A stretch of DNA of 64,000 nt, from contig NC_079234.1 of the NCBI RefSeq assembly GCF_028502605.1, positions 3,472,001 to 3,536,000 of the forward strand. Reading direction: 5' to 3'. A program made the position numbers and the translations under genes. The notes beneath the pieces were generated by a model. That model ran no database searches. It was not told where the DNA came from and saw only the letters and a list, made by a program, of their open reading frames with translations. The DNA comes from Trichoderma breve (taxonomy: Eukaryota; Ascomycota; Sordariomycetes; Hypocreales; Hypocreaceae). Position 1 is the stretch's first letter; each line of letters begins with the position of its first letter. This document shows positions 32,493 through 53,238 of the stretch, piece by piece.

Positions 32493-33206
32493 TTACTGGT
32501 CGTACTCGCCGTAGTTCTTAGTCCAAGGGATGTTGCAGCGCTTGGTAACAGTTCCGTCGGCTTCAGTGACGGCACTGCACTCAGTACGCTCCTTAACATC
32601 ACGCTTCTCGTCGTATTCGCCGTAGTTCTTGGTCCAAGGGATGTTACAACGCTTAGTGACAGTTCCGTCGGCTTCGGTAACTGCACTGCACTCGGTGCGC
32701 TTCTCGACGTCACGCTTCTCGTCATACTCGCCATAGTTCTTGGTCCAAGGGATGTTGCAACGCTTGGTGACGGTTCCATCAGCAGCAGTAACGACGCTGC
32801 ATTCGGTGCGCTCCTTGACGTCACGCTTCTCATCGTACTCGCCATAGTTCTTAGTCCATGGGATGTTGCAGCGCTTGGTGACAGTTCCGTCAGCGGCAGT
32901 AACTACGCTGCATTCGGTGCGCTCCTTAACATCACGCTTCTCGTCATACTCTCCGTAGTTCTTGGTCCAAGGGATGTTGCAACGCTTAGTGACAGTACCG
33001 TCGGCTTCGGTTACTGCGCTGCACTCAGTGCGCTCCTCGAGGTCGCGCTTCTCATCGTACTCTCCGTAATTCTTAGTCCAAGGGATGTTGTAACGCTTGG
33101 TAACAGTTCCATCGGCAGCAGTAACTGCGCTGCACTCAGTAGGCGTGGGTGCTGCCAGGCTGAGAGCAGAGAGAGACAAAACGACGAGAGATGAGCTGAA
33201 CTTCAT
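32493..33206 (-). CDS. secreted Kex2-type repeat peptide precursor (candidate dikaritin-like RiPP precursor)
   Basis: Intronless, 237 residues. A signal peptide (MKFSSSLVVLSLSALSLAA) is followed from residue 23 by six tandem copies of a 37-residue unit; the last is cut to 30. Each copy has a spacer (TECSAVTEADGTVT), a KR site, a 14-residue segment and, in copies 1-5, a second KR site plus DVKER-like residues. The segment is YNIPWTKNYGEYDE in copy 1, CNIPWTKNYGEYDE in copies 2-5 and ends in Q in copy 6. Signal peptide plus KR-flanked repeats is the layout of UstA, PhomA and GigA precursors and of other Kex2-processed secreted peptides. Seven UstYa-like genes downstream favour a RiPP role. A structural or repellent-type peptide is the main alternative. 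Confidence 0.8.
   Translation of the reverse strand: MKFSSSLVVLSLSALSLAAPTPTECSAVTAADGTVTKRYNIPWTKNYGEYDEKRDLEERTECSAVTEADGTVTKRCNIPWTKNYGEYDEKRDVKERTECSVVTAADGTVTKRCNIPWTKNYGEYDEKRDVKERTECSVVTAADGTVTKRCNIPWTKNYGEYDEKRDVEKRTECSAVTEADGTVTKRCNIPWTKNYGEYDEKRDVKERTECSAVTEADGTVTKRCNIPWTKNYGEYDQ
32496..33140 (-). repeat. six tandem 111-bp coding repeats
   Basis: The unit is 37 codons. Copies differ mostly at third positions (for example tac/tat, ctc/ttg-type changes on the antisense) while the KR-flanked segment stays nearly fixed. Copies 3 and 4 share SVVTAADG, whereas 2, 5 and 6 share SAVTEADG, suggesting duplication or gene conversion within the array. Confidence 0.9.
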
Positions 33207-35000
33207 TTTGAAAGTTTGTAATAGTTTGTAATAGTTTGATGAATGATATGACGGGTTTGTTGTTTCTTAAGCTTGAGTGATGAGTTGCTTGGTCAAACTT
33301 TTCAAACACCGTCCTGGGCTCTCTTTATATATGTACTTGGGCCCTCATATTCATCCAATGTAATGAGGATCAATGCTCCGAATATGGAATGACTTTTGAC
33401 TCCACGTATGGCTTATTTACTACATTACTCCGTACACTTTCTCACAATGAGGCCAATTCGAGCATCTCGGGCATTGGAAGCAGCAGGCGAGGTATCGTTG
33501 CCCTCCAAAGACCGTTCACACGCCTTGGGGTATCACAAAATTATTCTGAACAAGGAACATTTCTCTTGGCTGACATGGTAGCTGCAGTCATAGCCCAATT
33601 GGTGAAAAGATTCTATAGTCACCCCCCATGGATTATGGTATCCTCAAGAGGAGAGAGGTTTTGGTCGTTGAAAATTCCATCATTCAGATGTCGGGATGTC
33701 GGTCTGAAAGACAAGGAACAATACACCACCAAATCCAAAACTGTCTTATCTAACCGCCAAGATCCGAGTCATGAAAACTACGAGAGCTGAGTTCTGACGT
33801 CATTAATATGGTAACTTCCTTTCAAGGCATTAGTTCAAGGCATTAGGGCGGGATGTCTATTTCTTCCAATATCAAGTGCTAGTATTGTCGTGATGCTTCA
33901 TGTATAAGATACAGTGTTAATGGGCTATTATGAACTGTGCCTGAGCCTCAAATCTGTGATACGGTAGCACTGAGAGACCCAGCTAACTGCTGACTTGTCC
34001 CTGGTGGGTAATTTGAGCGAGGTGTGAACCATGCATGACCCCCTGCCCTCATCTGACCCCCATCTAGAAAACTCCGTACAGAATTTCTTATTGCTCCGCG
34101 CAGGGTGCCTGTATGCACGAGTAGGATACCGCTCTAGGCGCGTTAGTGAAGATGAATCTACATGTATGTATATACCCTGAGCGGGCTAAAGAGCGGCCGC
34201 ACAACTAAAGCCCATGCCTCTCTATACACGTACAACGGCCGCTTACATGCAGTCAACCCGCCGGGTATATCTGCGGCAAATCCTTGCCCAAGGGGCGTGT
34301 GGGCGTCACGTAAGTGGACTTGGTTGCCAAGCCCGGTGTGCGTCGTATATCTGGAGGAATGCTACTATGTATTAGTAGATGGGAAATGTGATCAACCCAA
34401 GATGCAGATTTCTCGGGTGCTAGTCCGCCGGCATCTACACCCCTGTATCAGGATTTAGTACGTCCTCGGCCCGGGCGGCAAGAATCTGATTCGCCTGGCA
34501 AGGAGATAAGGGTCAGATTGAACTGTCAGATTTGTCTCCATGTGATGCGTAGCTCCATCCAGTTTGTCAGCGAGGCTCAAATCAACCCAGAAGCTGTTGA
34601 TCGAAGGACAGTTTATCGGGCCGTTTAATAGATGCCGGGAATGGCTTCAAACGTACATTTCATAAAGAACACTATCCAAACTTGGTAATTATACCTCCCA
34701 TAACTCAATACGCAATATGCTTCTGATATGATTCTAACGAGGCTGTGAAGGAACAATTCATGAAATTTCTAATTATGGTTATAAAGTTATGCACAATGTA
34801 GAGGATTTATCCAAGACGCTCTCCGGATGCCAAGATGCAAGCTAACAAGGCTCCTCTGTCCAACGGTATCACGGAAAAGAGGACAGCACTATACAGTAAT
34901 ATTTTGCTTCTAGAGGGAAAATAAAAGGCATGTTCCTTCATTAAGTTCATCAAAATAGCTACGAACTGTAAATTTATGTCTCAGAGAACTCCAATACAAC
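33207..35000. other. 1.8 kb intergenic region
   Basis: This includes the precursor promoter at its left end and the 3' flank of the first UstYa-like gene at its right. Short open frames (plus 33389-33790, plus 34162-34458) have no recognisable motif. TACTCCGTA-type motifs lie near 33426 and 34071. Confidence 0.5.
33324..33332 (-). promoter_or_regulatory. TATA box of the precursor gene
   Basis: atatataaa on the minus strand, about 118 bp upstream of the precursor ATG. This spacing is usual for strongly expressed fungal genes. Confidence 0.55.
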
Positions 35001-35962
35001 TTATTCTACCGAGCTGAAAACTGAGTGGCCGTTGACCCATTGAACTAGGTCAGGATATACACGGCACTTGCGAGGAAGCCCTTTTCCCATTATCTTCCCC
35101 GTCGCTGAAGTTTCCAGGACATACGGCGTTACGTCGCTGGAGCATGTCAGCACCATCCGTAGAGTCGAAACACAATGGTCGACATGATGCCGACGCGTTT
35201 TGTCTCCACCACTAAATGAAGGCAGTTTACTGTAGTCCCAGTGATTTCTGTAGATGAATTGTCTCACAAGGTTCTGTGTAATCAAAGTTCGCAATATTAG
35301 TTCTAGTTTCAACTCATATATGTGTGTTCATACGTACCAGACAGTGTATTTGATGTGCGCCTTCGAGTAAACCACCAACACCTCCGCCTCGATCTTCGCC
35401 CACGAGTCGGAAATCCCCAATCATCGAGGACTTGTTCAGACTACCGAGTGACTCAAGCGGTACGCTGAAGGCACCAACTGGAATAGCAATGTCAGATTCT
35501 ATGCAATCATCAAGCACTGGAATACTCACAATCCCATAACTTTGCCCATGCCGCCTCCGACGCTGCTGAAGGGTATCCGCTGTATACGTCAGGCTCGAAG
35601 AACTGATTAAACGTCGTCCATTCATATCGAACGGCTTCTAAAACAGGGCCTAAAACAATCCCAATTAAATAATTAGCGAGATGTCGAAAACATCATGGCA
35701 AGGAATTGCACGCACTCGGAGGCGACATTCGCCGTGTACACCTCTCGTCAGACACATGGTTTGACACCCTCTCGATATAAAAAGACAGAGACAAGAAGAG
35801 ACAGAGGGATGAAAATGCAAAGAATATTCGGGTATGGAGCCTTTTCGTTCTCTCAATTGCCCTCAATTCATCAAGAGACTCATCTGCTAGCTCTTCATCG
35901 TCAGAGGGTGTCGCTACTGACTGGTACCGAAGGCGCTCGGCGAGTCGACTTTTCCACCACAT
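35001..35962 (-). CDS. UstYa-like DUF3328 membrane oxidase, copy A
   Basis: Four exons: 35962-35716, 35649-35530, 35477-35338 and 35273-35001, giving 259 residues. An acidic cytosolic N-terminus precedes one membrane anchor (IFFAFSSLCLFLSLSFYI, about 48-65). The lumenal domain includes PVLEAVRYEWTTFNQFFEP and SEAAWAKLWD. Both diagnostic motifs are present: HQIHCLNLVRQ and HVDHCVSTLR, followed by CSSDVTPYVLE. UstYa/UstYb proteins catalyse oxidative cyclisation of the core peptide in ustiloxin-type RiPPs, possibly via metal held by the HxxHC motifs. It is the UstYa-like gene nearest the precursor and diverges from the acyltransferase. The exact reaction is unknown. Confidence 0.85.
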
Positions 35963-36945
35963 AGTAGTTTCAATAGTCAGTCAACGGATGCTCTAACTTC
36001 AAGTCTACAATAGGGAGCGAAATGGAGAATAGTTTCAGCATCACAAAGAGAGGAAGGGAGAGCGAAGAGCCATCTAGGCATTGCAAGAAACCCTTCAATG
36101 CAGCCCTTCCTGCGATAGAACAAGCATTTCACGATATGCAATACCCAGTACAATCCCTGATACCGTCACAGCTAAAAGATGAGTAAGATTATTCATCCGA
36201 ACTTATATTAAGCGGTTGATCTAACCTTCGGTATCCTGGGATGTCTTATGTACACGCCCCTCCACAAGATCACACAGATGCCCCCTGCAAGAAGATCTGC
36301 AACTACAACCACACTCCTCGGGCGTGTTCCGCCTGTTTTGCCGCAGTTGTTTTGGCACCGATAAAGCGATTTCTGGGGTAAGATTCTCGGACATCGACTG
36401 GATGTATGTAAGATGATTTTCGGACCCTCGGATTCCGAATTGTAGCAATATTGCATGTTCCTAGTCCTTATCTTGACTAGACAGAAATAAGAACGAAATA
36501 TGTACAGACGAAATATACGAAGTAGACGGAAATACTGGCGAAATCTAGACGCATAGTAAGCATGTCCCTAAACCCCTGCATACATCCCGGGTCACATTTG
36601 CGGTTTCGTATTAGTAGTATTTCAGCGGCTAGATATGCGAAGCGGAAAGGATTATCGCACCTCGGATAATATGACGCACGGCAACGGCAGTTAGTTCGCA
36701 GCTTGATGAGGTTATCGCGGCATTTGTTCTCGTACTGTTGTCTCTATGCGGCTTACCATTGCCATAGGCATTGCCGAGATGTTCTTGTATAGGAAATAAT
36801 GAAGCATGCCCAGTGTGATTTGCTCTGTTCGTGAGACTTCCGTTCCAAGACTGCTTCAGACTCGGTTTGAGATAAAACTTCATTCGTAAATTTTTCCCAA
36901 ACTATTTAGCACAATCATAAGAAAAGCCAATTGACTACCAGTATT
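35963..36945. other. divergent intergenic region
   Basis: This separates the divergent copy-A and acyltransferase genes. Minus-strand open frames at 36208-36456 and 36629-36883 lack recognisable motifs. The first has one hydrophobic stretch (VVVVADLLAGGICVILW) but no convincing continuation. Confidence 0.45.
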
Positions 36946-38535
36946 ATGCGAATGTTCTCCAGATCCTGGAAACTTCCTTGGCTATCTCCGCCGCCGTGGC
37001 GGTCTTCAAAGTCGCTTGACTTAGAAGAGGAACATGGCATGCTTGAGTCACAACAAAGAGAACGTATCTTGAGCCCCAACAAGGATGATACCTCAGTTCA
37101 GAGAGCCTGGGTTGCAAGAAACGTTCCAAAAGCTATCATCAGCCTGATGCTTTTTTTCATGCCTAGCTTCTTTCGATCTCATGGCAATACTGGCGAACAG
37201 TCTCGCAATGGCGATGCGTCTACTTCGGCACTCGACGGGCTGCGTGGCTACGCGGCTCTGGCCGTTATGAACTATCATCTCTTATACGCATACCAGCCTT
37301 TTGTTTTCTATGGCTACGGTCTCTCCGAAAGTTCTGCTATGCAATGTGCACGGCCTGAGGATATGCATCATCACAACAACTGGTTTCATCAACTACCAAT
37401 ATTTCGACTCATCTATGTCGGAACTTGGCCAATCTCAGTCTTTTTCGTCCTTTCTGGATTTGTTCTCTCCTATAAGCCACTGGTACAATCTCGAGATGCA
37501 TCTTCTGGCTTTACCAAGGCAGTCAAGTCTATGACCTCCTGCTTCTTTCGTCGTCCTGTCCGTTTATATGGACCACCAATTGTCGCCAGCTTCATCACCA
37601 TGCTCGCGATACAGCTTGGTGCTTACGAACATGGCCGCAAGATAGCCTACAATCCTAAATGGGTCCCCGTCATCAATGAGCAACACCAAGAAAGGTTGGA
37701 CTCTTTTGGTGCGCAGCTTTTGCATTGGCTTGATCAATCATGGAGAATGCTCTATGTTTTCTGGTGGGGAGATCTTCACAATCGCTACGATGTGCATTTA
37801 TGGACAATACCTGTAGAGTTTAGATGCTCGTTAGCTATCTTTCTCATTCTACCGGTGTATATGATACTTCGGTCAACCATCCGAGTATTTTTGATGATTA
37901 TCCTGATTGTCTATGTGTATGCGCTTGATCGTTGGGACGTGGCACTGTTTTTCTCTGGACTTTTGATCGCCGATACCGCTATTGCATCAAGAACAGACGC
38001 AATGTCCTTGAACATCAAGAAGCCTGGTCGAAATTGGCCCGTAGTGGCCATGAAGGTGCTGCTACTGATAGGCAGTCTTTGGCTAATGTCAGCTCCAGAT
38101 TTCTGTGTCATGGAGACTCCAGGGTTTCAACTCTTGGGCTGGTTGATTCCACCATCAGATCCAGCGCCAAATCGTTTTCTGCCAAATCTTGGCGGTATCC
38201 TTCTTGTCTCTCTGCTCACTCACACTGAACAGAATAACGCAGCTATCTCATGGTTTCTCAATTCATCCATACCACAATATCTTGGCCGCATAAGCTACAG
38301 TCTTTATATTGTTCATGGGCCTTTGATTCACACTGTTGGATACGCGGTTTTTCCGTTCTTCTGGACAGTTTCTGGGACGGATGAGGTTTGGAGATATGTC
38401 ATTGGGTTCATATCGGGATATTTGGTTCTGTTGGGAGTGGTGCTTTACGTTTCTGATATATTTTGGAGAGCTGTAGATGTAACATTTGTTCGGTTGGCCA
38501 AAGCATGGTTTTCTCGTATGGTTGAGCCTACATAG
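36946..38535 (+). CDS. acyltransferase-3 family multi-pass membrane protein
   Basis: Intronless, 529 residues from the ATG at 36946. The acyltransferase-3 signature appears as ALDGLRGYAALAVMNYHLL (about 95-113) and PISVFFVLSGFVLSY, with catalytic-type His in the first block. About ten hydrophobic helices follow, ending with YLGRISYSLYIVHGPLIHT. Such proteins transfer acyl groups to secreted or lumenal acceptors. Its position between UstYa-like copies A and B makes O-acylation of the cluster peptide a testable guess. Relatives also occur widely outside peptide clusters, so membership is inference. The N-terminus is basic and Trp/Pro-rich. Confidence 0.85.
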   Translation: MRMFSRSWKLPWLSPPPWRSSKSLDLEEEHGMLESQQRERILSPNKDDTSVQRAWVARNVPKAIISLMLFFMPSFFRSHGNTGEQSRNGDASTSALDGLRGYAALAVMNYHLLYAYQPFVFYGYGLSESSAMQCARPEDMHHHNNWFHQLPIFRLIYVGTWPISVFFVLSGFVLSYKPLVQSRDASSGFTKAVKSMTSCFFRRPVRLYGPPIVASFITMLAIQLGAYEHGRKIAYNPKWVPVINEQHQERLDSFGAQLLHWLDQSWRMLYVFWWGDLHNRYDVHLWTIPVEFRCSLAIFLILPVYMILRSTIRVFLMIILIVYVYALDRWDVALFFSGLLIADTAIASRTDAMSLNIKKPGRNWPVVAMKVLLLIGSLWLMSAPDFCVMETPGFQLLGWLIPPSDPAPNRFLPNLGGILLVSLLTHTEQNNAAISWFLNSSIPQYLGRISYSLYIVHGPLIHTVGYAVFPFFWTVSGTDEVWRYVIGFISGYLVLLGVVLYVSDIFWRAVDVTFVRLAKAWFSRMVEPT

Positions 38536-38649
38536 ACTAAAAATTACATATTCAAAAAGAAACACATCTATTCACTAGCTCACAAGCAATACGTTCTTTT
38601 CATACACTGTACTTCAATTGCTAGCTCTTCTGAACATGTAAGTTGGCGA

Positions 38650-39670
38650 TTATGAGATGTCATTCTGATAATCCTTAGTGTTCAATGCGTGTACGCCCGC
38701 CCACTCTCGAATCTTCTCAAAATTGCGACACTTGTGTTGGGTATTAAAGTCAGCATCTATTCCCAACGGCCTCCTCTTGTCCGTTACCATCAAATAAGGA
38801 GTCACGTCAGATGTGCATTTCAAGAATATCAGCAGACTGTTGATGCAGTGATCCACGTGCTATTTCAATGGTTAGCGAGCCCTTGCAAATGGATGTGATG
38901 GACTTCTTACTTCGCGGACTTGCTTTGGAGTTCCATCAAATGCCGGCTGCTTGCTATAGTCGTATTCATCTCGATAAGTGTATTGCCTGACCAAATCTAA
39001 GCAATGAATTTGATGAAAGACTATACGAGATTGTTAGCCGGAAACTACTTGATTGCGGTACATTACAACACTGTGGCCTACTTTCCAAGTTTCCAATTAC
39101 GCCGCCTCCCGCTTCTGGCTTGGCTCTTTTCCAATCTACTTCCTTGGATTTGTTGAGCGCATCAAGCTTATCCATAGGGATGTTCACCGGGCCAACTTTG
39201 ATAAAGTCAGTCCATGAAGCTCATGTCAAGTTGAACAACGGACTTACAATTCCACAATTCAAGCCATGCTCTCTCAAGTTCTGGAGTAGGTTTTCCTCTG
39301 TAGATAGATTTTTCGTTGAATTTGTTCTGGAACTGAACATCGACATATTCGACAGCCTCTAGCGCCGGTGCTATTCAGGTATGTAATCTCAGCATTAAAT
39401 CTCCTATCACAGCCGCAACCGTCACTTACACCAGACTGAAAGTTTTCTTGCACACTGATCTGTGGATGGTTCTTTGGTAACAGCTGCCACGAGAAGGATA
39501 AGAACCGCAACAAGGAGGAAGGTTGTGAACAGCCAAGCAATAGGTCCAAAGAGATGCCAGGTTAATGACTTCAAAGGATTACGAGTTATCTTCTCTTGTG
39601 TACCAGTAGAGCCATCTTCCTCAACATCGGCCTCATCTGCAACAAGGCTGTATCCATATCCAGGGGCCAT
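38650..39670 (-). CDS. UstYa-like DUF3328 membrane oxidase, copy B
   Basis: Five exons: 39670-39430, 39370-39248, 39195-39082, 39020-38911 and 38859-38650, giving 265 residues. A cytosolic N-terminus precedes one membrane helix (HLFGPIAWLFTTFLLVAVLI, about 39-58). PALEAVEYVDVQFQNKF and ELERAWLELWN match copy A. Motif 1 is FHQIHCLDLVRQYTYRDEYD and motif 2 HVDHCINSLLIFLKCTSDVTPYL, then CRNFEKIREW. All introns are GT-AG, each restoring a family motif. It is convergent with the acyltransferase (about 114 bp between stops) and divergent from copy C. A, B and E form one close subgroup by shared blocks. Confidence 0.86.
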
Positions 39671-40427
39671 TTTGAACGTAGAGTCGGGAAAACGGGAAAC
39701 AGTACAGCAAAGATGGCAAATGAGTTAAGGAGAGAAGACAACGAAATGGTGACCAGATTGATACTGTAGGTACAGGAGGGAGGGCTAAGGCTTTTCGAGC
39801 AATGCTGGCCTCTCCAAAGGATCAACCACGCTATCTTTGTTTCCACTCCCAATGGTAACCCAAGATTAGTCAAATGCAAGGTATCGAGCCTGTGTGACCC
39901 CGGTCACAATTGTCCTCCAATCAGCGCTCTGTATATGTCATAATTCATGGCAGTGAGTTTCATGACAGAAGTCCGGGGGTAACCCGAGTCCCTCGGTACG
40001 TATCAGGAAGTTTCCACTCACTCTATCGGTGAGAGACGTTGCAATGATGCCCGATTACATATCGTCTGCAGAAGGATTCTGCGAAGGGCATCATCTTCCT
40101 AAGCCCTGCTTAGTCGATTCGCCGACCAAGCATGGATGCTATCTCCCGAAGATCCTGGACGCATCGTGTTACGGCCACCCCCTCCCTGTCTAATCATGCA
40201 TGTCAGATCCCCCAAGAGATAGATATTGTGGAGTCGCAAGGATACAGGCACAGACCTGATTTATTCCTACTGAGTCTATCATTGCGAAGTCACCGACAGT
40301 GATGCATCTAAGTTGATGTAGTGCAGCAGGTTTGGCTCAAGCCCTCAGTGCCATTCTTTGCTCCCCAACAACTGCAGCCTCGCCTTTCATCCTCTGCTCT
40401 TCTTCACATCGGTTTACACCCAGAAAG
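39671..40427. promoter_or_regulatory. divergent promoter region of UstYa-like copies B and C
   Basis: 757 bp between divergent start codons. No specific operator was recognised. Confidence 0.45.
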
Positions 40428-41428
40428 ATGAAGTTCATAGATATGATATCCAAGATGAGACCTAATAGCCTCGAAAAGACAGACGAGCAATACCACGACG
40501 AGGATGAAGCCCAATCTTTTCTTTCCAATGGCAAAGAAGATGGTAAAGCCAAGTTGATCTCTTGGCGATTTATGGAAGATGGATCATTGCCTTGGAAAGT
40601 TGCAACGGTTGTACTTGCAGTCTCCCTCGGCGCCTCTTTATTCTTCGGTCAACGAGTCCAACACAGCCCTAGTTATGAAACAGGGTTTATAACTGAACTT
40701 CGTCAGTATTCCATATTGGAGGAATTGCGATTGCAAAGTGGTTGCTGACGGCTCCAGAACCCGCTATCTCTGCTATCAAGTTGAATAGACGACAGTTTTA
40801 CGGAAATATCGTCGTCAACGCATCCAATCAATTTGAGTTGATGCTTAACCCGAGCGAAGAGCGTTATGTCGGCCACCCGACTGCCGAACTAGATGCAGCA
40901 TGGGACAGAATCGTAGGCAAGTAATTGTTGATGATGCCGAACCCATATTCGATTGTTAACATATATGCATCTAGGCTCCTACGTTGCCTTGACGGCAGAT
41001 GAAGCCAGCAAAGTTCAAGGCCAAGTCTCAATAGACAATGGAAAATACTTTGTTGTTCCACACGTTCGACATAGTCTTCACTGCGTCAATTATCTTCGGA
41101 AGGTCGCGTATGACAAGTATTATCCGACTGTTCGCACCGAGAACAAGCCAACAGTTCCCACATTCCACATGCACGTTGGTAAGTCGCTCTCTATGTAGGA
41201 CGATGTTAGGCAATGTGCTGACCGACAGCAGATCACTGCGTCGAAATACTACGTGAGACTATTCAGTGCCAAGGTGACCTGACTCCTGTACCGCACGTAT
41301 GGTCCGAAGGAAAGCAGATGTATTTGGCAGACACTTCATTAGTACACACTTGCAGGGATTACCCTGCCCTAATGGATTGGCAAGATGAGAGAGATGAGGC
41401 ATGGAAGACGGGAAAGATTCACAATTGA
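40428..41428 (+). CDS. UstYa-like DUF3328 membrane oxidase, copy C
   Basis: Four exons: 40428-40701, 40758-40916, 40975-41178 and 41232-41428, giving 277 residues. The membrane helix is KVATVVLAVSLGASLFF (about 59-75). The lumenal domain has AELDAAWDRIVGSYVALT, motif 1 RHSLHCVNYLRK, motif 2 HVDHCVEILRETIQCQGDLTP, and VHTCRDYPALMDW. This is the more widespread UstYa branch with ALTADEASKV-like sequence. Intron 2 needs a GC-AG splice (donor GCAAGT at 40917) to read VGSYVAL; GT options nearby give stops. It is the only plus-strand UstYa-like gene here and converges with copy D. Confidence 0.85.
40917..40974 (+). other. GC-AG intron in UstYa-like copy C
   Basis: The donor GCAAGT and acceptor ctag join codons to give VG-SYVALTADEA. 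The nearby GT donors (gtaggc, gtaatt) lead to frameshift and stop. Confidence 0.75.
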
Positions 41429-41616
41429 TGCAGAAGGCGATTAGGTCGCTCTAAAAGCGATGGGGAAGAACATAGACCCTGATTATAATTGAAGAGAGCC
41501 TGTTTTCTTTATTGCAACTATTACAGTCCACTGCGTAAATTCTGCATGGTATCCATTTGTAGTTAAACGATAAGGCAGTAACAAATATATCAACTTCTCA
41601 ACTATCTAGACTCTAC

Positions 41617-42486
41617 TTATGGAATTCTAGAGAGCTGCACAACATTCTTTGGCTTCTTCGGGAAATCAACCACCTCATGGTTTTGCGCCCACTTCTCCAC
41701 AGGCTCCCAGTTGTAACACATACGCGCGACGTTGAAGTTCGCCGTAGGGGCTTTCCTTCCCTTGACCCAGTCGTATAACACGAGTCCCGTATCACGATCG
41801 CTGTTCAGATTGATCAGTGCTCAGAGATCAGACATTTGTAGGTGTATAACGTACCACTCCAGTTTTTGTCTCAAGATTTCTATGCAGTGGTCCACTCGTC
41901 CATGCCACTCTTGAGGGTTCTCGTCGTAGCTGGCTTTCTCATCTGGATATGAGTCCATATATGACGCCCTGAAGAGATTGTACAGACAGTGTAGCTGGTG
42001 GGTGTATTCAAATGTCGCTAGATAGCGCCCATCGTCAAGACGAACTGCCTCTTCGGTATACTGAGGCATCGAGGCCTTGAATTGCTCCTCATCCACGCTA
42101 AACGTCCAAGTTTGCCAATATTTTCCCCACGCTTGATCAACTTCTTTTGTGGGTGGACCCCGGAAAGGAGAGGTTTGATTGTACGTGCCATTCGTGCGTA
42201 CCATGTGATGAGTTGAGAGATCTGTATTATCCCAGAAAATGTCAACTGTTGCGGGGCATGGTTAGTTCTCTTCTCGGGAGGAAGGCATTAACTCTATCAT
42301 ACGTGGTGCTTGTGGAGGTGTTGATGAAGTGGGAGGCCGTGCTGCTGCTTCGAGACCGAGTTGCTGACACGAGTGCCAATTTGCTCGTGGGATCACCGCT
42401 TGGGTGATGATGGATCCTAGGAGTCCGCCGCCGACAAACGGCAGAAAAGCCGAGGTGCAAAATTTACTGCTCTCTCCTAGCTTCAT
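41617..42486 (-). CDS. UstYa-like DUF3328 protein, copy D
   Basis: Three exons: 42486-42303, 42245-41855 and 41800-41617, giving 252 residues. A short N-terminus with a weak hydrophobic segment (LPFVGGGLLGSIITQAVIP) leads to LDIFWDNTDLS and EVDQAWGKYWQTW. Motif 1 is THQLHCLYNLFRASY and motif 2 RVDHCIEILRQKLEC. The sequence after motif 2 departs from the usual TP-containing block (DRDTGLVLYDWVKG), then ends in ARMCYNWEPVEKWA. It belongs to the same superfamily as copies A-C but a different branch. A TATA-like element lies about 102 bp upstream of the ATG. Confidence 0.83.
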
Positions 42487-42587
42487 CTTGTTAATATTCA
42501 ATGTATTGTTAATAAGGGCTGCAGTTGCTAATATAGCAGAGACCTGAAGGAGAGGAAGAGAGGAATGGACTAATGGGGGGCGGCCGG

Positions 42588-42598
42588 TTTATATATAT
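42588..42598 (-). promoter_or_regulatory. TATA box of UstYa-like copy D
   Basis: atatatataaa on the minus strand next to a GC-rich cggccgcccccc-like stretch, about 102 bp before the ATG. Confidence 0.5.
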
Positions 42599-42748
42599 GA
42601 CTAGTAATCTGATAGGTAGTTATACGGGCTTCCTAATATCTTATACATATCTTCTAGGGCTTCGGCTATTCCACATTCTATAACATAGATTTAATATCCT
42701 TTTCCGACGATGTCAATGGAACTAGTTCTCTTCTTGATTCAATATTAA

Positions 42749-43755
42749 CTACTCACGGCTAAGGCTATACAAATTTGGCAGTTTATGCAGCGTAGGACTC
42801 TCTCTTTCCTTCGTCCATTCCAGAATCTTATCAAAATTGCGACAATTATGCAACGTGTTAAAATCAGGCGACTCTTTCTGAGCCTTTTCTGGAGTCAACA
42901 TGATTAGATATGGCGTTGTGTCGCCCAAACACATGAGCACCTCCCGAAGCCTCTGCACACAGCCATCAACTCGAGCCATTATTTGCTCTTCTGTACCTTG
43001 GAATGCGTCTAAGTAAGAGTAGTCATACTCTTCCCTGTATGTGTGCTGCCGCAAAAGGTTTAAGCATCCCAGGTTTCGAAAAACTTCAAGATACGCCAAA
43101 GCGCCATTGCCGTTTTCTGACTGCACTAATTGAGTATCTGCATCATGTAAACCTGTTAATTGCTTTGTCGGGATAATGATAGGATCGTCTTTGGTGAATT
43201 GTTAGCATTTAATAGTACTTTCAGAGCTACGAAACGGTTGCATACGTTGTAATGAAGCGTTCCACGCTTCTTCCAGCTCCAAAGTTGGAACACCCCGATA
43301 TATTGACTTTTGAGAAAAGCCGTTCTGAAATGTTTGCCAAGTATATTCAACTGCGTCCCATGCAGGAGCTGATACATGTTAGTATCTTATGGGTGATAAC
43401 TGTGCGTCCCAATTCTCAACTTACACCATGAAGACACGCTCTGGACACATTCTAGATCGCTTGGCTCATAACGTTGGCCTGCAATGAGAAGTACCAGCGA
43501 GAGCGCCAGGAAGGTGAATGAGAGACCTGAATAAAGGCTCTTCGATGTGAACATTTCAGCTGTGAGCTCTATTGTTGTCCGGACTGAGAAGGACAATTGC
43601 TCCCTAATGTGCGTTTGAGAATAAGATGCGGACTTCGCGAGTCTTAGTTGTTCGAGGGGCATCAATACCTCCCTGAAAACATTCAGCCAAAGCCCACCAC
43701 GCGTTGATGATAACGCTCCTCTTTTGATCTGCATAGATGTTTCTAAGCTTGGCAA
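42749..43755 (-). CDS. degenerate UstYa-like protein lacking both HxxHC motifs, copy E
   Basis: Three exons: 43755-43425, 43368-43246 and 43188-42749, giving 297 residues. The layout equals copies A and B: membrane helix SFTFLALSLVLLIAG, PAWDAVEYTWQTFQNGF, IYRGVPTLELEEAW. But the place of FHQIHCL reads FRNLGCLNLLRQHTYREEYDYS, and the place of HVDHC reads RVDGCVQRLREVLMCLGDTTPYL. Thus three of the four motif histidines seen in copy B, plus one flanking, are replaced, while the surrounding fold residues and the CRNFDKILEW end are kept. The intact frame and splice sites argue against a simple pseudogene. A non-catalytic partner of another UstY protein is plausible. The start could be the Met 7 codons later. 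Confidence 0.8.
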
Positions 43756-45044
43756 AAAGGTATCTCCGTCCGTGTACGCAAGGTACTTCTTGTGTCAGCC
43801 CTAGATTCTTCTAAAGGTGATGAAAGCGCTTAAGCGCCCGTTTTTTTAATGTGACACGTAGCTACGACTAGCAGGGTTATCATCACCTTTATTCCATGTT
43901 GGCAAGCCCGGTATGGGGTGCAGGTAAGAGTACATGTATCTCTTCGGAGTAAAGAAGCCGTACTTATTGCTATACTGTCTCCAAGCTAGAGTGGGAGATT
44001 ACTGCGTGTGGGGTTCTTTGGGCCAGGTGTGACTATCTCCGTACTCCGTAGATCTCGCTCAATGTTTGGAATAGCGCTGCAGCTTACTAGCTTTATGCGT
44101 ACTCCCTCCCCTACCGCCTTCACGGGGCTTGAATCTTTTGGAGCGGATTACAATGGAACAGGATCTGCCTTTAGTTCAGCAACAGGTTCATCTCATCATC
44201 CGACGAAGATAAGGGGGGTGTGCTTCTTAGCGTGGGGGCGAAGAGCGGGAGTATCCTGTGCAGGGGTAAAGGCTTAATTTGGAAGCTGACTCCCCTGGGG
44301 TGTTGATGGCGGGATAATAGCCATTGTCCTCCCCACAATCCATCGTATATCCGTAAGAAAGTATTAGTATACATACAGAGATAGGCTGAGAGTACGAAAG
44401 CGGAGAATTAATTCCGAGGGTTAACAATCAGACCGATGGAACTTTCCGTACAGTATGGAGTAACCAGACTTGCCAGATATCGCAAGCATCTGGATGATCC
44501 TGCTGACACTTAGTAAAGTAGATGCAAACATTGGGTTGCACCCGGAGTTATGTTCTTAGGTTAGTCATTACTGATTCATCAACGGCTACTTTCCGCAACG
44601 GGTTAGCAATTCGATGAACTCGGCACAAACAACTTACCGATAACTTACAGTTCAGTCTTAGGTATGAGGTTGAAACATAGGCCCGCGATATGTTATTCTC
44701 TTTTTGATGTTTGTAAACTTGATTGTCAAGAGAATGACACCTATTGTGTGCAGGTCAATTCAAGATTCAATATTTTCTCATATCGGTCGAGAAGTTTGAG
44801 TCAAGACTCAGCGCACTTTGTGTCAAGAGGATTCCACAAGTAGACTAAGTTATGAATGCGTAAAGTAGAGAGCAAAATAGTTGGAGAAATGTGATGATTT
44901 TCCAATTTGCTGCAACTCTTCTGCACAGTACAATTTGAGCCATTGACTGCATTATGCTATCGGTTTTCTATTTAATCGCAAGATCATTATACTACAAGCT
45001 ACTTGCTAGATCTATCGTCAAAGTCAAGAGAAAACTGGATTGAA
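43756..45044. other. 1.3 kb intergenic region
   Basis: Short open frames (plus 44008-44277, minus 44171-44427) show no motif. A doubled ctccgtactccgta occurs at 44037-44050. Confidence 0.5.
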
Positions 45045-45799
45045 TCATAATTTGTGGTCGTTGTGACCCTTGTGCTTCAGAAACTCTGGTTCCTCAAGCC
45101 TGCTGCTCTTCAGCTCCACGTATGAGTACGCAATGGGACCAGGATCTTTAAATATTTGTCCACAGTGCTTCACGTGTCGCTCGTTGTCGTATCTCGGCTC
45201 AATCAACACCCCAGTAAAACGTGCTCGTTGTTGCTTTCTCCAGTAGTAAAAGCAATGCATGAAATGCCAGTTGGTGGTAGTCCAAAAGAAGCCGTTGGTA
45301 TCTGCCAATGCGCCGACTTCGTCTATACTCAAGAGCCGGGAATGCTCTGCATCCACCCAATACTGCCAAGTGCCATTCTCTCCATCTCCCATCTTTTCAA
45401 ACTCAGCAACTAGTTCACTGTCGATACATTGCGGAGGCAACCATGCTGCGGCAATAGTATCGTATTTACAGCCCATTGCGCGTGCTTCGGCCGTGCTAGA
45501 GCCGCAGTCACATCTGGTCCCCGTTGACGTAGGTCGCGATTGCATGTATAATGCGATAGCAGCGGCTAGGGCGAGGACAACCAAGATAACATCCTTGATT
45601 ATGATGAGGATAGTCACATATCCAAGTCTCTTTCGTTTCCGAGGCTCAAGAATTGGGTCATTCTCATTGCTTGTTTCGCCAAGTTCGATCCTGCAGAAGC
45701 AGATGCGTCAGTATTCCAAAGTAGGGATCAATACTAAACAAAAAAACAAACAAATAAACCTGAGAAGTGCCACACTTACTTTTGGTATTCGTGTACCAT
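45045..45799 (-). CDS. DUF3328-related single-pass membrane protein with HxxHC-like motifs, copy F
   Basis: Two exons, a 20-nt first exon (45799-45780) and 45690-45045, giving 221 residues. After a basic segment (EPRKRKRLGY) comes a membrane helix (TILIIIKDVILVVLALAAAI, about 38-57). The lumenal part is CDCGSSTAEARAMGCKYD, AAAWLPPQC, then HFMHCFYYWRKQQRARFTG and RHVKHCGQIF. This is the widespread fungal family with GCKYDxxAAAWLPxxC and MHCxYxWRK, related to but distinct from true UstYa proteins. Function unknown. The second motif (HVKHC) resembles UstYa HVDHC. Its place among UstYa-like genes suggests a role with them. Confidence 0.8.
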
Positions 45800-46610
45800 T
45801 GTGCAATCGACTTGGCTTTTTTCTCTATTGCTGGTGATGATTACTGAAGTGATATGATATCGAAGTGCCTTAACACAGACGTGGATACAACGTCGAAGAG
45901 AAAAAGAATCTGACAATTAGTGCCTCACTGCAACCTGGGGGAAAGAGACAGTCACAGGGCAGGGGCGCCGAAGTCCGCTCAGGCCGCGTGACTTGAGTCA
46001 AGATCATTTTCCAAGATCTTGAATTACAGTAAGATACCGATCCCTCCCTCTAGTTGCAAGGATCGGCCATTACCTGCACGCATGCATTAGTGTTCATGTC
46101 CCATGCGGGGTGCGAATAGTCAGCATCAAGATTCCATCCTGTTACCCTGGGGTATGAGGACTTTTGAGTCTCGGACGAACCCCCGACAGTCAATGTAACC
46201 GCACCTCAGATGCCGTATCATCTCAAAGAGGCATTTGCCTCGGTTCCACCCGTCTACGCTTACGGTTACGATAGAGCCGGATAATACCGCGGGTTTTATC
46301 CCGCTTTGTACTCGGAAACCGTATCCAACAGCAAGTCTGTCAGCCTCTGTAAAATCAGCAGGTTTACTTCGAACAAGAGAAAGTCATAGATAATGCAGTC
46401 TATTAAGGAAGTTAGTTAGAATGTTAGTTTCACAGTCCAAACATGTATCATTTTAGAGGCTTTAGGTAGATTTTTATTTCCGTGTATACGGAGTATGCCT
46501 ATATAGATATGGGGGCTGACCTAAGTTAGGACAGGGATCTACGGAGAAATGAAGTTCAGGTACATGCGATTATAGCTCATCTTGTTTATTCATAGTAACT
46601 ATTGTATGTT
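45800..46610. other. intergenic region
   Basis: This lies between the promoter of copy F and the amidase 3' end. No coding region is supported. A tacggagta motif occurs at 46487-46495. Confidence 0.55.
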
Positions 46611-48518
46611 TCACTGAGATCCTATATTCTTATGGCCTGGTATGGGATCCAGCTTTCCAAGATCAGGAACAGGCCTTGGTGGGAGCGTGTTCTCAAAGAT
46701 ACTCATAAACCGCAGCAGCGTCTCTTCCTCGCCTGCCTTGGCAATTAAACAAATGCCGTACGCTCTGCCATTGTACGATAGAATTCCAAGAGGAACATTT
46801 GCAGTAGGGTAGCCTAGTTTCCATTTCCAATTAGTTTCAATGCCACAACCATCTTCATGCTTTTCTACACACCTGCAGCTGCGCCATGGATCAGCAGCGC
46901 CGAATCAGTGGGCGCAGCAATAATGCTCACTCCTTCAGTATCGAAGGTAGAGTCCAAAAGTTGTCTCGCCTTTGCTCGTAGTCCCTTCTTGAGAAACTCT
47001 ATCTCTTCTTCCTCATCAGTGTTGTCCAGACACTTGTGAAGATCACTCTGGTCAGGGAATGCTAAAGACTGGTTAGCAACCGTAGGAAACTGCTAAGTGG
47101 CTCAGATAGCTTACGATGAGGGAGAGCATCATCTTTGTGCTCTTCATTGAACTTGACAATATCAGCGAGTGAGCGCACAGGCGACTCTTCGTATTCTTTG
47201 AGAAAGTTATCAATGGTTCTGTTCTTGCAATCCCAAACTATAGTTCCAATTGGTCATGTAAGTAAATTGATGTAAAACTTCACTTTGATCACAGAAGATT
47301 GAACTCATCTTACATGCAATCTTCATAAACGCCTCTTTACCATCGACGGTCAACTCTGAAACATCCGGGACAACAACGGGATAGCGGAGATCACCTCCAG
47401 CCTCCTTTAACTTGGAGACAACCCGCTCGTAAGTCTCAATCTACTCATTATTAGCACACAAAGAACGTGATGTAGAGGCCATATTAACGACTGACCATCT
47501 CTTCTGCTGTGCCCTCATGATGCCGGCACATTGAGTCGCCCAGATTCCACACTCTCGGATCAACGAAGCCAACTGACAAACCTTGCCAATTTTTTTGCCC
47601 TGCAGAGGTTAGTTTGCGACCCAGGAGTATCTCGGTTACAGGTACAAGATCATGGGTTGATTTCGCCATCGGTCCGGCGGAATCATAGAGTTCACTTAGG
47701 GAGAACACTCCTTTTATGTCGACATCCCCAACAGTAGGCTTGATTGCATACAGCGCATTTCGGGACGCAGGCACCATAATCGATCCTGTAGTTTCAGTGC
47801 CTATCGACAGAGGGGCAAATCCAGCAGCTATAGCTACAGCTGGTCCCGTCGATGAGCCTCCAGGTGACTGTGCACATTTTCTATTAGACGAAAGTTCAGG
47901 GTAATAAGGCGACTAAGGATGGTGATGAACGAACAGAGTGACCAAGAATTGTCTCATTATCCTCAATCTGGCCAACATACGGAGACAGCGTCTGGCCACC
48001 GTAAGCAGACCATCCAGGCATCATGGCCGAAGTCTTCAAGCCACAGAACTCGGTCAAATTGGCCTTGCCCAGGATGATGAGGCCAGTATCTATTAATTTT
48101 TCTACCAACGGAGCATTCTTTTTGCATTTTGCTTGCGCCAGCGCGAAGGAGCCCGCAGTTGTAGGCATCCCAAGCTCTGAAGCCGTCATAATGCTATCCT
48201 ATACCAGGACACAAAGAAATGCATCAGAAATAATTGAATCCAAAGTGTAAGTAAAGTTCATACCTTTAGAACAATGGGTATGCCATGGAAAGGACCGCGA
48301 AGGGATCCAGCAGCGCGCTCAGCATCGAGCGCTGCTGCGATACTTCTAAGAGCATCCCGAGGTGCAAGTGAGATGAAGGCATTAAGGGCCGGATTATGTG
48401 CATCTATTTGGGTGAGGTATGTCTCGATAATCTGAACACTATTTAATTTCCCGCTAGCCAGTCGCTGCTGCAGCTCGACAGTTGTTGTTGTCAATGGGTC
48501 AAACAGGAGAGTAGACAT
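46611..48518 (-). CDS. amidase-signature family hydrolase
   Basis: Seven exons: 48518-48264, 48198-47935, 47867-47496, 47440-47314, 47237-47115, 47061-46873 and 46813-46611, giving 510 residues. The start at 48518 (MSTLLFDPL) fits fungal amidases; an upstream in-frame extension is less likely. Catalytic Lys lies in GIPIVLKDS (about 84), the cis-Ser in SPGGSSTGPAVAIAAG and the nucleophile Ser in GTETTGSIMVPASR, in the correct order. It would hydrolyse amides to acid and ammonia or amine; substrate unknown. Intron 2 uses the donor GTTCGT. It sits between UstYa-like copies F and G, so peptide processing is possible but unproven. Confidence 0.85.
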
Positions 48519-49969
48519 GTCGAAATTTTGGAGGGAATACAGAGTGTGTTGTTGCGGGCCAGGTGGGCGCAATGAAATGACTGTTGCTACCGCGTAAATA
48601 CGAGAGAGCAGTAGGCACCAACTACGATCACTATGAAGTATACCAGAATTCTGGCTAGTCATGCTAAGCGGAATGGTGTAATGGAATGTGTTACACTACC
48701 TGCCTGATTCGGCATCACTTGCCCGAGCAGCTATTGAGGATCTATTCACTGTATTTTGTGCAAGCGCAGTTACATGTAGTTCTGAGCCGTAAGCCAGGAC
48801 TCAGATCTTTTCAGTTTGCGTCAAATAACAAGCTCAGCAATGTTAACGCGGACATGTAAGCTTGCTAACCTGCATCCAACTTTGAAGAGCCTATTAGCGG
48901 GGCACTCTCTGATGTGGTTGAATAGTTGTCTAGGATCCTAGCACCTAGCAGAATATTATCTTGATGACTACATCCTAACAAGGCCTAGGTGTATCAAGTG
49001 TAAAGCCCCCCTCATAATACCGCTATTGTCCGGTATGCAGCAAAAGCTTTAAGGATATAGATTCAGGACCGTACCATATCTCGAGGTAAGATGTAACTTA
49101 CTGCAAGAGGTAAGGCATCTGCAGGCTAATCAGACTCAAATCCTATCCTGGAAGTACTTGTGCGGAGTCATGTTTTTTTGTGATACATCATGAGGATTCA
49201 GAAGACCCATTTATTAACCTGATAGCGGAGCATTGACAGCATGGCAGAAGCCTTCGGCCGAAAAGGAGCTTGCAGGACCAGGAAATGCATTCGTCAATTA
49301 GTTTTTCGTTGATAGCAACTCCGAGCATTTGCCTCATACAGTAAGCTCAACCAGCCGAAGCCCACTTCCTCTGGCCGGGAGCAAGGATCCATGCGGGTAG
49401 TTGAATCGCGCGCTAATATGTCGTACGCGGAGATTCCGTTACGCCCGTGTTGGTCAGACAGATTCATTCAGATGACAGAAATGCCCATGCCCGGTTTTGA
49501 GAAGTGGTCCCGCGTATGTAACCTCGTCTATCCGTTTATTCTTTGTTTACACCCTCCGTACTCGTACATACGAGTAAGTGCCGGCCGATATACCAACCCC
49601 CCCTCCCCCCTGTATGATGATCCCGTCTTTAGGGTGGTCAAGCTCCATCAGCACTAAGACCTGGAGATACCATCGTAAGTGGATCATGAAGTAACTCTTT
49701 ATCCGCAAAGCATCACTTCATGTAATTGCATGGAGATAGCAGACTATCCGTGAATGCGTCCTGCACAGCCTCCCGAAGAATGGTCAGCAGTCCGCTGACA
49801 AACGGCATTGGTGAGGAGTCACAGTACATAGCCACACCCAGCCTTCAGTATACCTGTATGCTGTCTTTAGAGCTTGAACATTTGAAACATCCGGTTTGCT
49901 ACTCACAACTCTTTCTTGACGGACATATCGGAAAGCCAAAACCTAACTCTCCTGGCTTTCTATTGCAAT
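48519..49969. other. 1.45 kb intergenic region
   Basis: This holds the upstream regions of the divergent amidase and membrane-protein genes. No supported gene. Short frames (plus 49391-49657, plus 49726-50046) lack motifs. Confidence 0.5.
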
Positions 49970-51443
49970 ATGGCCATTCGTACATTCGCTGTACTTTCGT
50001 TACTATGTCGATCAGTATTTGGTATTCAGAGGTCATTTGTTCTTGACCAGCAATGGGCAAACCATCAGCGATGCGTTGATATGAATGGCGACCACGCATT
50101 CCAGCCTAGTACTGCATCTTCCCTCGTCGTCACGTTTGATGCTGCCGCAGAGGGCTCAGTGAGCGTAGTTGTATTTGAGCTGGGAGATGAGCATCTAGGA
50201 GGAATTCGCCTTCCTGGTTCTCAAGACGTAAGTTGCACCGTCCAAGCTTCTGCGGTATAGACATCTGGTACCAAATCTAACACCATTGTCACATCACTAG
50301 AAGGAGATCTTTTGCAACTCACAAAACGTGGAACGGAAGCTCTGCGAAGAAAGTCAGATTGGCGAATTCTTAATCTCAGACCATGCTAGGGCGAAAGCAA
50401 AGCACCCCATGATTACTCGCGCCATCAACTTGACGAAGCCTATAGCGATTGTGTATCCCATTCAAGGCCCGGGCTATTTCTGCGCCGCAACGTACAGCCA
50501 TTCAGCCAAGTCGTACTCAGGTACATTGCTGGCAATCGATCCAAATGGGAATCTCCCAGCGTTCCGAAACGGCTTGCGTACCGTCTACACCGTCTTGGCG
50601 CGGATATGGCTTCTCTCAAATTCTATATGGGTTTATTTCGTTACAGACCTGGCTTTAGAACAGCTTATAGGCCCTTCTATAGCTGTGCTAGGCACCATAT
50701 CAATTGCCCAAGTTGCATTTAAATGGGGTTTCCTACAGCTTGAGGAGTCCAAAGCAGCATCTGCTTTGCAAATTTTATGGTACTGTCTCGAGTTAACCCA
50801 AAACTCTGTCGTCATGTTCATGATTCATAAGCTTGTCGCTGCGAGTGAAGCTTCACCACCGGACAGCATGCGGTCAAAAATTGTCAGAACGATTCTTCCA
50901 TATGCCTATCTGGCTGTTTTCCCCATTGTTTTCCTTCTTGCATCACTCGCAGACTTTACTGCTACGGCTGAGAGCATTCAACCTGCCATTGTTACTATTT
51001 TTCTCGGAATCTATCTGTTTGTCGGCGCTGCTGCCGCTGCCTTCATGCTTGTGGGACGACGTACTGCTACCCTTGAACATCAAAGAGAGGTTTCAATGGA
51101 AGATAAATTCATCCGAAAACCACTCTCGTTTGTTCTTGCGGTCTTATGTATCCCAATTATTGCTATTGTGGGTTTCAACATCTGGGCGATTCTAAAAGTC
51201 GGCGGCGACGGTACGAAGTTTGCGCACATGTTCTGGCACAGTCGCTTCGGGATCATTGATATGCCATATGAACTACTGTTTCTTATACTTGTCGTAGCTT
51301 TGATGGGACTCAACACATATCAAGCACATAGACATGATGAGATGACAGACATGAAGAGTATGGAGACTGAAGGTTTGATGTCCTACAAACCTGTATCAAT
51401 GGATTCGAGTGAGTCGGTAGAAGAGGAAAGAGAAGAGAAATAG
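49970..51443 (+). CDS. multi-spanning membrane protein with secreted N-terminal domain (7TM, GOST/PTM1-like)
   Basis: Two exons, 49970-50227 and 50301-51443, giving 466 residues. A signal peptide (MAIRTFAVLSLLCRSVFG) precedes a Cys-containing lumenal domain (about 20-170). About seven hydrophobic helices follow (TVYTVLARIWLLSNSIWVYF, ILPYAYLAVFPIVFLLASLA, PAIVTIFLGIYLFVGAAAAA, PLSFVLAVLCIPIIAIVGF, PYELLFLILVVALMGLN). An acidic tail (SSESVEEEREEK) ends the protein. Signal peptide, lumenal domain and seven helices recall GOST-type proteins (PTM1, GPR107), but I see no decisive motif. Its place inside the putative RiPP region might mean a role in transport or sensing of the product, which is speculation. 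Confidence 0.6.
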
Positions 51444-51613
51444 ATGTGTCAAGTAGAGCAATGGCATTTGTATGTCATATATGAGATAGAATTACAGAGC
51501 ATGGAGCCATATGAGGGCAGTAGGAAGCGTTGAAGATATAAACAAAATTATGAGCATACTTTATTTCTACAGACGTATATCTTCCTATCCGTTCCACAAT
51601 CCACCTAGATAGC

Positions 51614-52699
51614 CTATACAGCATTGCATTCTCCTTGACCTGGCAGTGCGTGATTTCTGCCTTTCTGGATCTCCAGTTTTCCATCGTGTCCTTCCACAAC
51701 GTGTTTGCTGGGGTGCCAGTTGTGCGCACTTACCGTGTGTTCAGCGGCCCAGTCGAGAATTTTGTCGAAATTACGACAGGTGTGCTGGTTATCTACTCGA
51801 GGTCGAAGGCCTTGGACAATCTCGCTCCATTCAAAGTAAACAACGCTGACGTCCGCTTGGCAGATGAGCGCTTGACGGACTTGGTCCAAGCAATGGTCTG
51901 AGAGATTGGAAAATGAGCCACACGTCCTCCATTAATCTGGAACATGACAAGACATACCAACATGCAACCATTTGCAGTAATCCACCGTGCCATTGGGAAA
52001 GTAGAAATGCTTGTCGTATCGATCTCGATATAACGCCATCCTTACAACATCCAAACAGTGCATTTGGTGGAAAATGTCGAGCGTCATGACATATTCGTTT
52101 TCTCTCCCTTCTAACGGGAGGCGGGCTGTGCGCTCAGGCAACAGAGAAGCAGTATGAGCATCGATCGCACTTAACATGCCGGCTACAAACATGATCAACG
52201 ATCAGTATTAGTTGAATCAGTATTAACATTGGAGAAGTAATGGCAGTACTAACGTGAATATAATGATGCCCAATTGTCGTCGATCTCATCTGTTGGCCAT
52301 CCTTGAAATTTTGTTTTATCTTCTCCTCTACTCCTGTTGAATAGATGCGGAACATATTCCACCAGGTCATTAACCGGGGCTTGTCGCAATTGAAAGTTAG
52401 GCCGAAGAGCAGACACAACAACGTTGACTAGGTGAGGGCTTACAGTATAATTGCAACGAAGGGTCTTTCTGCACGCCACTAGGAACTCGATGTAGTTGTA
52501 ATAGCAGCCCACCTATGTTTATTAAAAGTGCACACAGAAGGATCCAGATGATGATCCAAGTTGCTTTGCTTCGTTCTTTCTGGTGAGAAAGCGGCTTGTA
52601 TGCTCGGCCGCAATGTGAGCAGCATTCATCTTCATGCTCGTTGTCGGGGTTGTATAACAGCCCAGCGCTTTCGGTGTCGACGGTCTTGGGGGACGACAT
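51614..52699 (-). CDS. UstYa-like DUF3328 membrane oxidase, copy G
   Basis: Four exons: 52699-52444, 52379-52254, 52182-51958 and 51897-51614, giving 296 residues. The N-terminus has a CxxC pair (ECCSHCGRAYK) and one membrane helix (WIIIWILLCALLINIGGLLL, about 48-67). DLVEYVPHLFNR and EIDDNWASLYSP follow. Motif 1 is FHQMHCLDVVRMALYRDRYD and motif 2 HVDHCLDQVRQALICQADVSV, then HTCRNFDKILDWA. The C-terminal about 35 residues go beyond the usual end (KHVVEGHDGKLEIQKGR). Both His-Cys motifs are intact, so it should be active. It marks the right edge of the UstYa group. Confidence 0.85.
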
Positions 52700-53238
52700 G
52701 GTGTACAGACAGGCCTGTAGTGAGCACTCTAGTAGTCTCTGAAGCGCTGAAAGTGTAACGTAGGGGTTGTCGTGGTTCTTATAGTGTCTGGGTCAGCATA
52801 AGCATAAGCTCCCCGCTTTATAGACAGGCCATTCATGCAGAGTTCCCGTATGAAGACTCATTAGGTCCATATTGTATGTACTCAAATGACTATCTGTATC
52901 CATATCACATTACCACCCTGGGAGTGTACCTGCGTCGTTAGTTGTAACATGAACGAAGATTATGTAGCCATATCCTGCGGCAAGAGACTTAACGTTGTAT
53001 AATACAGATATACCGTACTCCAATTGGAAGCAGTTCGGTTCTTCAGTTTTTCCCTATTCAAATGCGTGTTCTGGTGTTCAAATGCGTGTTCTGGATCATA
53101 TTCAAAGTGAATGTCAAGTGGAATCTCAGCTAACCACGCGTTTAATATACTACCTAGTCCTATGCTCTACACATCTATGGAAGACAAAAAAGTCCTCCAC
53201 ATTATATCCATCTTATCAAACAACATAATGTCAATCCA
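52700..53238. other. intergenic region
   Basis: Promoter of copy G and 3' flank of the lectin-like gene. A direct duplication of caaatgcgtgttctgg occurs at about 53060-53095. No gene. Confidence 0.55.

Follow-up and report, generated by a model that had tools for sequence, protein, structure and literature searches.

How do the several UstYa proteins encoded in one fungal gene cluster act together? The matter is open: clusters hold several such proteins, and the CctR enzyme of a 2025 study is a dimeric two-copper enzyme. The question is raised by a 64-kb stretch of the Trichoderma breve genome (contig C3, 3472001-3536000, within 38.5 Mb on 9 contigs; hereafter the window), in which a candidate precursor gene with internal repeats lies beside seven UstYa-type genes, Y1 to Y7 (Table 1). 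A first-pass annotation had proposed a dikaritin-type cluster for a ribosomally synthesized and post-translationally modified peptide (RiPP). The present analysis indicates that the region is probably a RiPP gene cluster with a dikaritin-like, Kex2-repeat pathway and an unusual oxidase set, in which one UstYa protein, Y5, would be a non-catalytic partner.

The Repeat Precursor and Its Relatives

The proposed secreted precursor with KR-flanked repeats was borne out. Its open reading frame (ORF) begins with a hydrophobic, signal-like stretch that ends in AAP, secretion being judged here from the sequence alone, and continues with six aligned repeats of 111 nt, which carry twelve KR and no RR sites of the Kex2 type. 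The unit reads TECSxVTxADGTVTKR-CNIPWTKNYGEYDE-KRDVKER, with variable spacers, and CNIPWTKNYGEYDE, which lies between Kex2-type sites in every repeat, is the predicted Kex2 release product. The core, (C/Y)NIPWTKNYGEYDE flanked by KR, contains two Tyr and one Trp; repeat 1 has Y instead of C, and the last unit has Q as its final residue, after which the protein stops. In the 15 repeat pairs, the 14 core codons (210 comparisons) differ 60 times synonymously and 10 times non-synonymously, the latter being five C/Y differences in repeat 1 and five E/Q differences at the last residue, and the spacer codons (310 comparisons) show 116 synonymous and 31 non-synonymous differences. Because the core is nearly fixed while silent sites vary, the repeats are no recent copy artefact. 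A second precursor copy was not found elsewhere in the genome, nor was a second repeat ORF with Kex2-type sites seen in the window. A match of the precursor to LodA_C (33 bits at a cut-off of 25, E 6e-8) was rejected as an identity; no single stretch rises above the cut-off, and the score is read as arising from the repeats.

The homolog search covered proteins of about 130-415 residues, and among the best 7,995 candidates scored there were three relatives. P0001 from Purpureocillium lavendulum has a full core, CAIPWTKNYGEYDE, followed by a partial second copy, CAIPWTKNYGDLEE; P0002, a metagenomic protein, has the core CVLSWTKNYGEYDE twice, and P0003 from Fusarium nematophilum has CNIPWTKNYGEYEE. 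WTKNYGEY is retained in all three while the spacers diverge, and the two Tyr and the Trp are kept in P0002, P0003, and the full repeat of P0001, one Tyr being lost from its partial repeat. In P0001, the WTKNYGEYDE repeats (one full, one partial) are joined in one predicted protein to a homolog of Y6, which is 58% identical over 146 residues to P0004, the Y6 homolog of T. harzianum. Either the fusion is genuine or the annotation has run two genes together; in both cases, precursor and Y6 are adjacent in P. lavendulum. No Trichoderma homolog of the precursor was among the candidates scored, and since Trichoderma matches were returned for Y5 and Y6, the precursor may be unannotated in this genus.

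A full-text literature search for WTKNYGEY or PWTKNYG returned no paper. WTKN and NYGEY are absent from the main text of an earlier Trichoderma RiPP study (PMC7099791), and no such core is named in the main-text portions of two Kex2-repeat surveys (PMC6339444, PMC7329392), the supplements of all three lying outside the search.

A Conserved UstYa Protein without Motif Histidines

Spliced models could be built at all seven UstYa-type sites, within 20 kb, and each protein has one transmembrane (TM)-like stretch in its N-terminal part. Six of them (Y1-Y5 and Y7) match PF11807 (UstYa) with E values of 8e-36 to 4e-58 and 124-197 bits at a cut-off of 25 bits, so that the seven UstYa/DUF3328-like genes first proposed become six, with Y6 assigned to a remote family. 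Six or seven in one cluster is a high number, as had been remarked; phomopsin has five, ustiloxin two, and asperipin-2a one, and the mean is 1.7 DUF3328 genes per precursor having any (PMC7329392). Intron 2 of Y3 (40917-40974) is a GC-AG intron.

The copper enzymes of the DUF3328 family, as described for CctR, have one TM helix and the motif HxxHC(x)nHxxHC and form a disulfide-linked dimer; two copper ions are proposed to bind at this motif, at the dimer interface, and mutants with H or C changed to Ala are inactive (PMC12435403). Two complete HxxHC motifs are present in Y1, Y2, Y3, and Y7, and also in Y6. Y4 lacks one motif histidine and Y5 all four, a loss not remarked in the first-pass annotation; by motif, Y4 and Y5 are incomplete copper enzymes. 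In that Y5 has no motif histidine and Y6 lies outside PF11807, both differ from CctR. The motif is attributed to "most" DUF3328 proteins in the same study, which implies that motif-less members exist.

The 230-residue model of Y5 starts where homolog P0026 starts; an upstream ATG at 43662 would give 266 residues. Its nearest paralog in the window is Y2 (45%), and it is 96% identical to its counterpart in Trichoderma sp. SZMC 28015 and 95% to that in T. harzianum; outside Trichoderma, identities are mostly 50-64%. The HxxHC histidines number none of four in Y5 and in 25 of its 29 homologs (E <= 1e-20), where R, A/G, R, and G/A are the commonest residues at the four positions. All 29 homologs have the two motif cysteines and another two cysteines, and stretches beyond the motif, such as RQHTYR and SPDFNTLH, are near-invariant. 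The exceptions are P0036, P0051, and P0054 with one His each and P0053 with two. P0036, a model from Trichoderma chlorosporum, appears to combine Y5 with Y4 sequence, and its His comes from the Y4 part.

Within the T. breve genome, the complete loss was seen in Y5 only. Among UstYa exon matches, the two motif-1 columns hold His in 27/29 and 27/28, the exceptions being Y5 in both and, in the first only, a Y2 fragment read as an exon-edge artefact. The first His of motif 2 is absent in 8/29, which comprise Y5, Y4, and six more matches that may in several cases reflect exon edges; the second is absent in 2/33, namely Y5 and one match at locus L015 that reads QQC and whose motif 1 lies outside that ORF. 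Partial losses thus occur in other UstYa matches; loss of all four is found in Y5 only. The predicted structure of Y5 (predicted local distance difference test score, pLDDT, 77) gave no match in the PDB by Foldseek at E <= 0.001, nor did its sequence. As the copper-ligand histidines are gone and the protein is nevertheless conserved, the most plausible reading of Y5 is that of a non-catalytic subunit. No account of a His-less UstYa protein was found by title or start of abstract among the literature matches listed.

Y6, a Second HxxHC Family Linked to Y5

Y6 as modelled and T. harzianum P0004 have all but one of 221 residues in common. With the Y5 identities above, this places the source most likely in the T. 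harzianum complex. No Pfam family matches it, and none of its 22 database homologs (E <= 1e-10) carries a precomputed Pfam domain. Six residues that form two HxxHC motifs (H149, H152, C153, H179, H182, and C183) are invariant in 22/22 homologs. A profile of the family aligned in register over both motifs with one of His-bearing UstYa proteins (90%, E 1.4e-6 in a single comparison), the reversed control scoring 0.2%; no match was obtained with the His-less Y5 family. The predicted structure of Y6 (pLDDT 84) has no match in the PDB by Foldseek at E <= 0.001, nor has its sequence, and no structural tie of Y6 to UstYa emerged from these searches.

Members of the Y6 family occur at seven places in the same genome. 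Six of the seven have a Kex2-type repeat ORF no more than 12 kb away, sought in the DNA stretches read around them, and a UstYa gene no more than 8 kb away; the distances to the repeat ORF are 0.8, 0.9, 2.6, 2.8, and 5.8 kb, and 11.8 kb in the window. The member at L014 was weak with a single protein as query (E 0.0097), gave 3e-7 and 4e-5 with the family profile, and has both motifs. At L033 (C6:886953-887672), neither a repeat ORF nor a UstYa gene was detected in the 9 kb read around the Y6-family gene.

Besides T. harzianum, five named organisms returned homologs of both Y5 and Y6. In 5/5 the two lie on contigs of equal size (P. lavendulum 687630, Thozetella sp. PMI_491 675412, A. ibericus 321201, N. 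serpens 86298, and M. mycetomatis 137614), from which a shared contig is inferred. The P. lavendulum pair consists of P0001 as the Y6 match and of the Y5 homolog P0028 on a contig of equal size, a second Y6 homolog (P0019) being on another contig.

Other UstYa Loci of the Genome

Among the best 50 candidates scored, at least 17 UstYa loci lie outside the window. A repeat ORF with Kex2-type sites was detected at 9/17 of those listed with a strict detector and at 10/17 with a looser one, against 0/5 control regions of 9 kb. Examples from L010-L027 are DTVVPDKQHY x13 (L019), TNDYPKYGKFGEF x7 (L017), a GGGCGYY-type repeat x4 (L012), and a AGDEAWKEANLG-type repeat x8 (L027). L015 (C5:3827000-3836900) is a second locus with several UstYa genes; its repeat ORF is of the YEGDDEG kind, and it too has an acyltransferase-3 gene.

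Accessory Genes, Flanks, and Promoters

The acyltransferase-3 protein and the amidase were confirmed, and the multi-TM protein turned out to be PTM1-like (Table 1); the families matched by the amidase and by this last protein are not those of a cluster peptidase or transporter. Six acyltransferase-3 matches in the genome, two of them adjacent, represent about five genes. Two lie inside UstYa loci, in the window and at C5:3831023 in L015, and are 27.5% identical to each other. Three PTM1-like matches, two adjacent, represent about two genes, one at C3:2082750 and the cluster copy. GOST proteins have been proposed as chaperones in trafficking (PMC9711517), and a role of the PTM1-like protein for Golgi-sited oxidases can be conjectured.

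The 11 gene models of the cluster and 8 more ORFs within it or next to it yielded no tyrosinase, methyltransferase, peptidase, transporter, or P450, though small or intron-rich genes could escape; this agrees with the peptidase, methyltransferase, and P450 reported missing at the outset. The flanks also hold a Zn2Cys6 regulator gene.

Of 11 upstream regions, 9 contain ACGCAT (nominal p 8e-6 among 1,924 words tested), and 6 contain ATGCGTC (nominal p 3e-6 among 4,337). Both words narrowly survive a Bonferroni correction, but a shared promoter word is not claimed: some upstream regions overlap, and GACGCAT has six sites in 33.2-53.4 kb, of which two are in coding exons and one is in an intron.

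Table 1. Features of the cluster and its flanks (positions in the window)
Feature	Position	Strand	Description
Candidate precursor	32493..33206	-	single-exon ORF, 237 aa; signal-like start and six 37-aa repeats
Y1, UstYa protein	35001..35962	-	4 exons, 259 aa; HQIHC and HVDHC; PF11807 E 7e-40
Acyltransferase-3 membrane protein	36946..38535	+	PF01757 E 5e-22; start codon uncertain, ORF opens at 36931
Y2, UstYa protein	38650..39670	-	5 exons, 265 aa; HQIHC and HVDHC; PF11807 E 4e-58
Y3, UstYa protein	40428..41427	+	4 exons, 277 aa; HSLHC and HVDHC; PF11807 E 8e-36
Y4, UstYa protein	41617..42486	-	3 exons, 252 aa; HQLHC and degenerate RVDHC; PF11807 E 6e-36
Y5, UstYa protein	42749..43554	-	3 exons, 230 aa; FRNLGC and RVDGC; PF11807 E 7e-44 (266-aa model)
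Y6, remote UstY-like family	45045..45799	-	2 exons, 221 aa; HFMHC and HVKHC; no Pfam match
Amidase, multi-exon	46640..48518	-	PF01425 E 5e-53 on 426-aa part; 3' exons tentative, end approximate
PTM1-like (GOST) 7-TM protein	49970..51443	+	2 exons, 466 aa; PF21902 E 7e-19
Y7, UstYa protein	51614..52699	-	4 exons, 289 aa; HQMHC and HVDHC; PF11807 E 1e-44
Ricin-B-type lectin gene	53231-53961		beside the cluster; PF14200
LysM protein and chitin-binding GH18 chitinase	22185-30718		mutually adjacent; upstream of the cluster

Discussion

In the pathway envisaged, the precursor would enter the secretory pathway, where Kex2 would liberate copies of CNIPWTKNYGEYDE. The luminal copper oxidases Y1, Y2, Y3, Y7, and Y6, and possibly Y4, would act on the aromatic residues of the core and on their neighbours, by oxidation or cross-linking. 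Y5, which keeps its cysteines and its PF11807 match, would be non-catalytic and most likely would hold or activate Y2 or Y6 in a heteromer. Decoration, trimming, or trafficking may fall to the acyltransferase, the amidase, and the PTM1-like protein.

Epichloecyclins are likewise made from a multi-repeat Kex2 precursor with a DUF3328 neighbour; they differ from the window in having another core and fewer UstYa genes. With the dikaritins (ustiloxin, phomopsin, and asperipin-2a), the window shares a secreted precursor, Kex2-flanked repeats, core Tyr, and UstYa/DUF3328 genes. Its core is unlike those named in the main-text portions of the dikaritin papers, and an acyltransferase-3, an amidase, and a PTM1-like protein were seen in it instead of tyrosinase and methyltransferase. 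Two definitions of dikaritins are in use, one based on five genes that include tyrosinase and methyltransferase and one based on DUF3328 (both in PMC12048977). As the former two genes were not seen, the cluster is not filed as a dikaritin in the five-gene sense and fits the DUF3328-based one; the dikaritin-type assignment therefore stands in the pairing of a precursor with UstYa genes, as also seen in P0001 and at the other loci, and fails on the narrower definition. Activation by Y5 is a conjecture that has a model in the prozymes, an unrelated enzyme system in which a dead paralog activates its living partner (PMC5201418).

Several observations weigh against the proposed reading. Tyrosinase, methyltransferase, and peptidase genes were not seen, and the promoter words are at best suggestive. 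In the window, 11.8 kb separate Y6 and the precursor. Linkage in relatives, named beforehand as a test, holds in part: Y5 and Y6 share an inferred contig in 5/5 organisms and precursor and Y6 are joined in P. lavendulum, but most organisms returned only Y5 or only Y6. In T. harzianum, the database matches of these two genes, neighbours in the window, lie on contigs of unequal size (34,346 and 3,933,788), and P0001 was not among the matches of the Y6 database search, its Y6 part having been recognised separately. Finally, the match between the Y6 and UstYa profiles falls to 3.7% with the six motif residues masked; on these alignments, the relation may be remote homology or convergence on one copper site.

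Were the precursor to yield an unmodified secreted signalling peptide, the UstYa genes would serve another substrate or form a separate, overlapping cluster. The precursor does sit at the cluster edge, and 6120 of 7878 Kex2-repeat proteins are without a DUF3328 neighbour (PMC7329392). This explanation is nevertheless unlikely, given P. lavendulum, where the precursor is found together with Y6 and a contig of equal size carries a Y5 homolog, the Kex2-type repeat ORFs at 9 or 10 of the 17 other UstYa loci and at none of the controls, and the two Tyr and Trp kept by the relatives.

Two further alternatives concern Y5. That it is still an enzyme, acting through other metal ligands or by other chemistry, would account for its strong conservation and near-invariant stretches and is somewhat less improbable than the unmodified peptide; it has to contend with the 25 of 29 homologs that lack His at all four ligand positions. 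Duplication followed by loss of catalytic residues would suit decay of Y5 and Y4 into paralogs with no role, Y5 and Y2 being 45% identical. With frames that are open and a His-less state strongly conserved across many genera, such decay is very improbable. A non-catalytic partner remains the preferred reading of Y5.

Clusters of this kind are already known; as far as literature searches show, novelty lies in the core, the Y6 family, and the conserved UstYa member without motif His. More tentatively, UstYa chemistry in one class of fungal RiPP clusters might be carried out by heteromers, with Y5 as scaffold or substrate surface, Y6 as its linked mate, and the duplicated PTM1-like protein as a possible chaperone. 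A conserved copper-less UstYa protein, linked to a second HxxHC family in several genera and to a precursor in one, makes the heteromer question directly testable. If this reading is true, Y6-type genes would mark fungal RiPP clusters that escape Pfam-based mining, and Y6 would be a new mining handle for these pathways.

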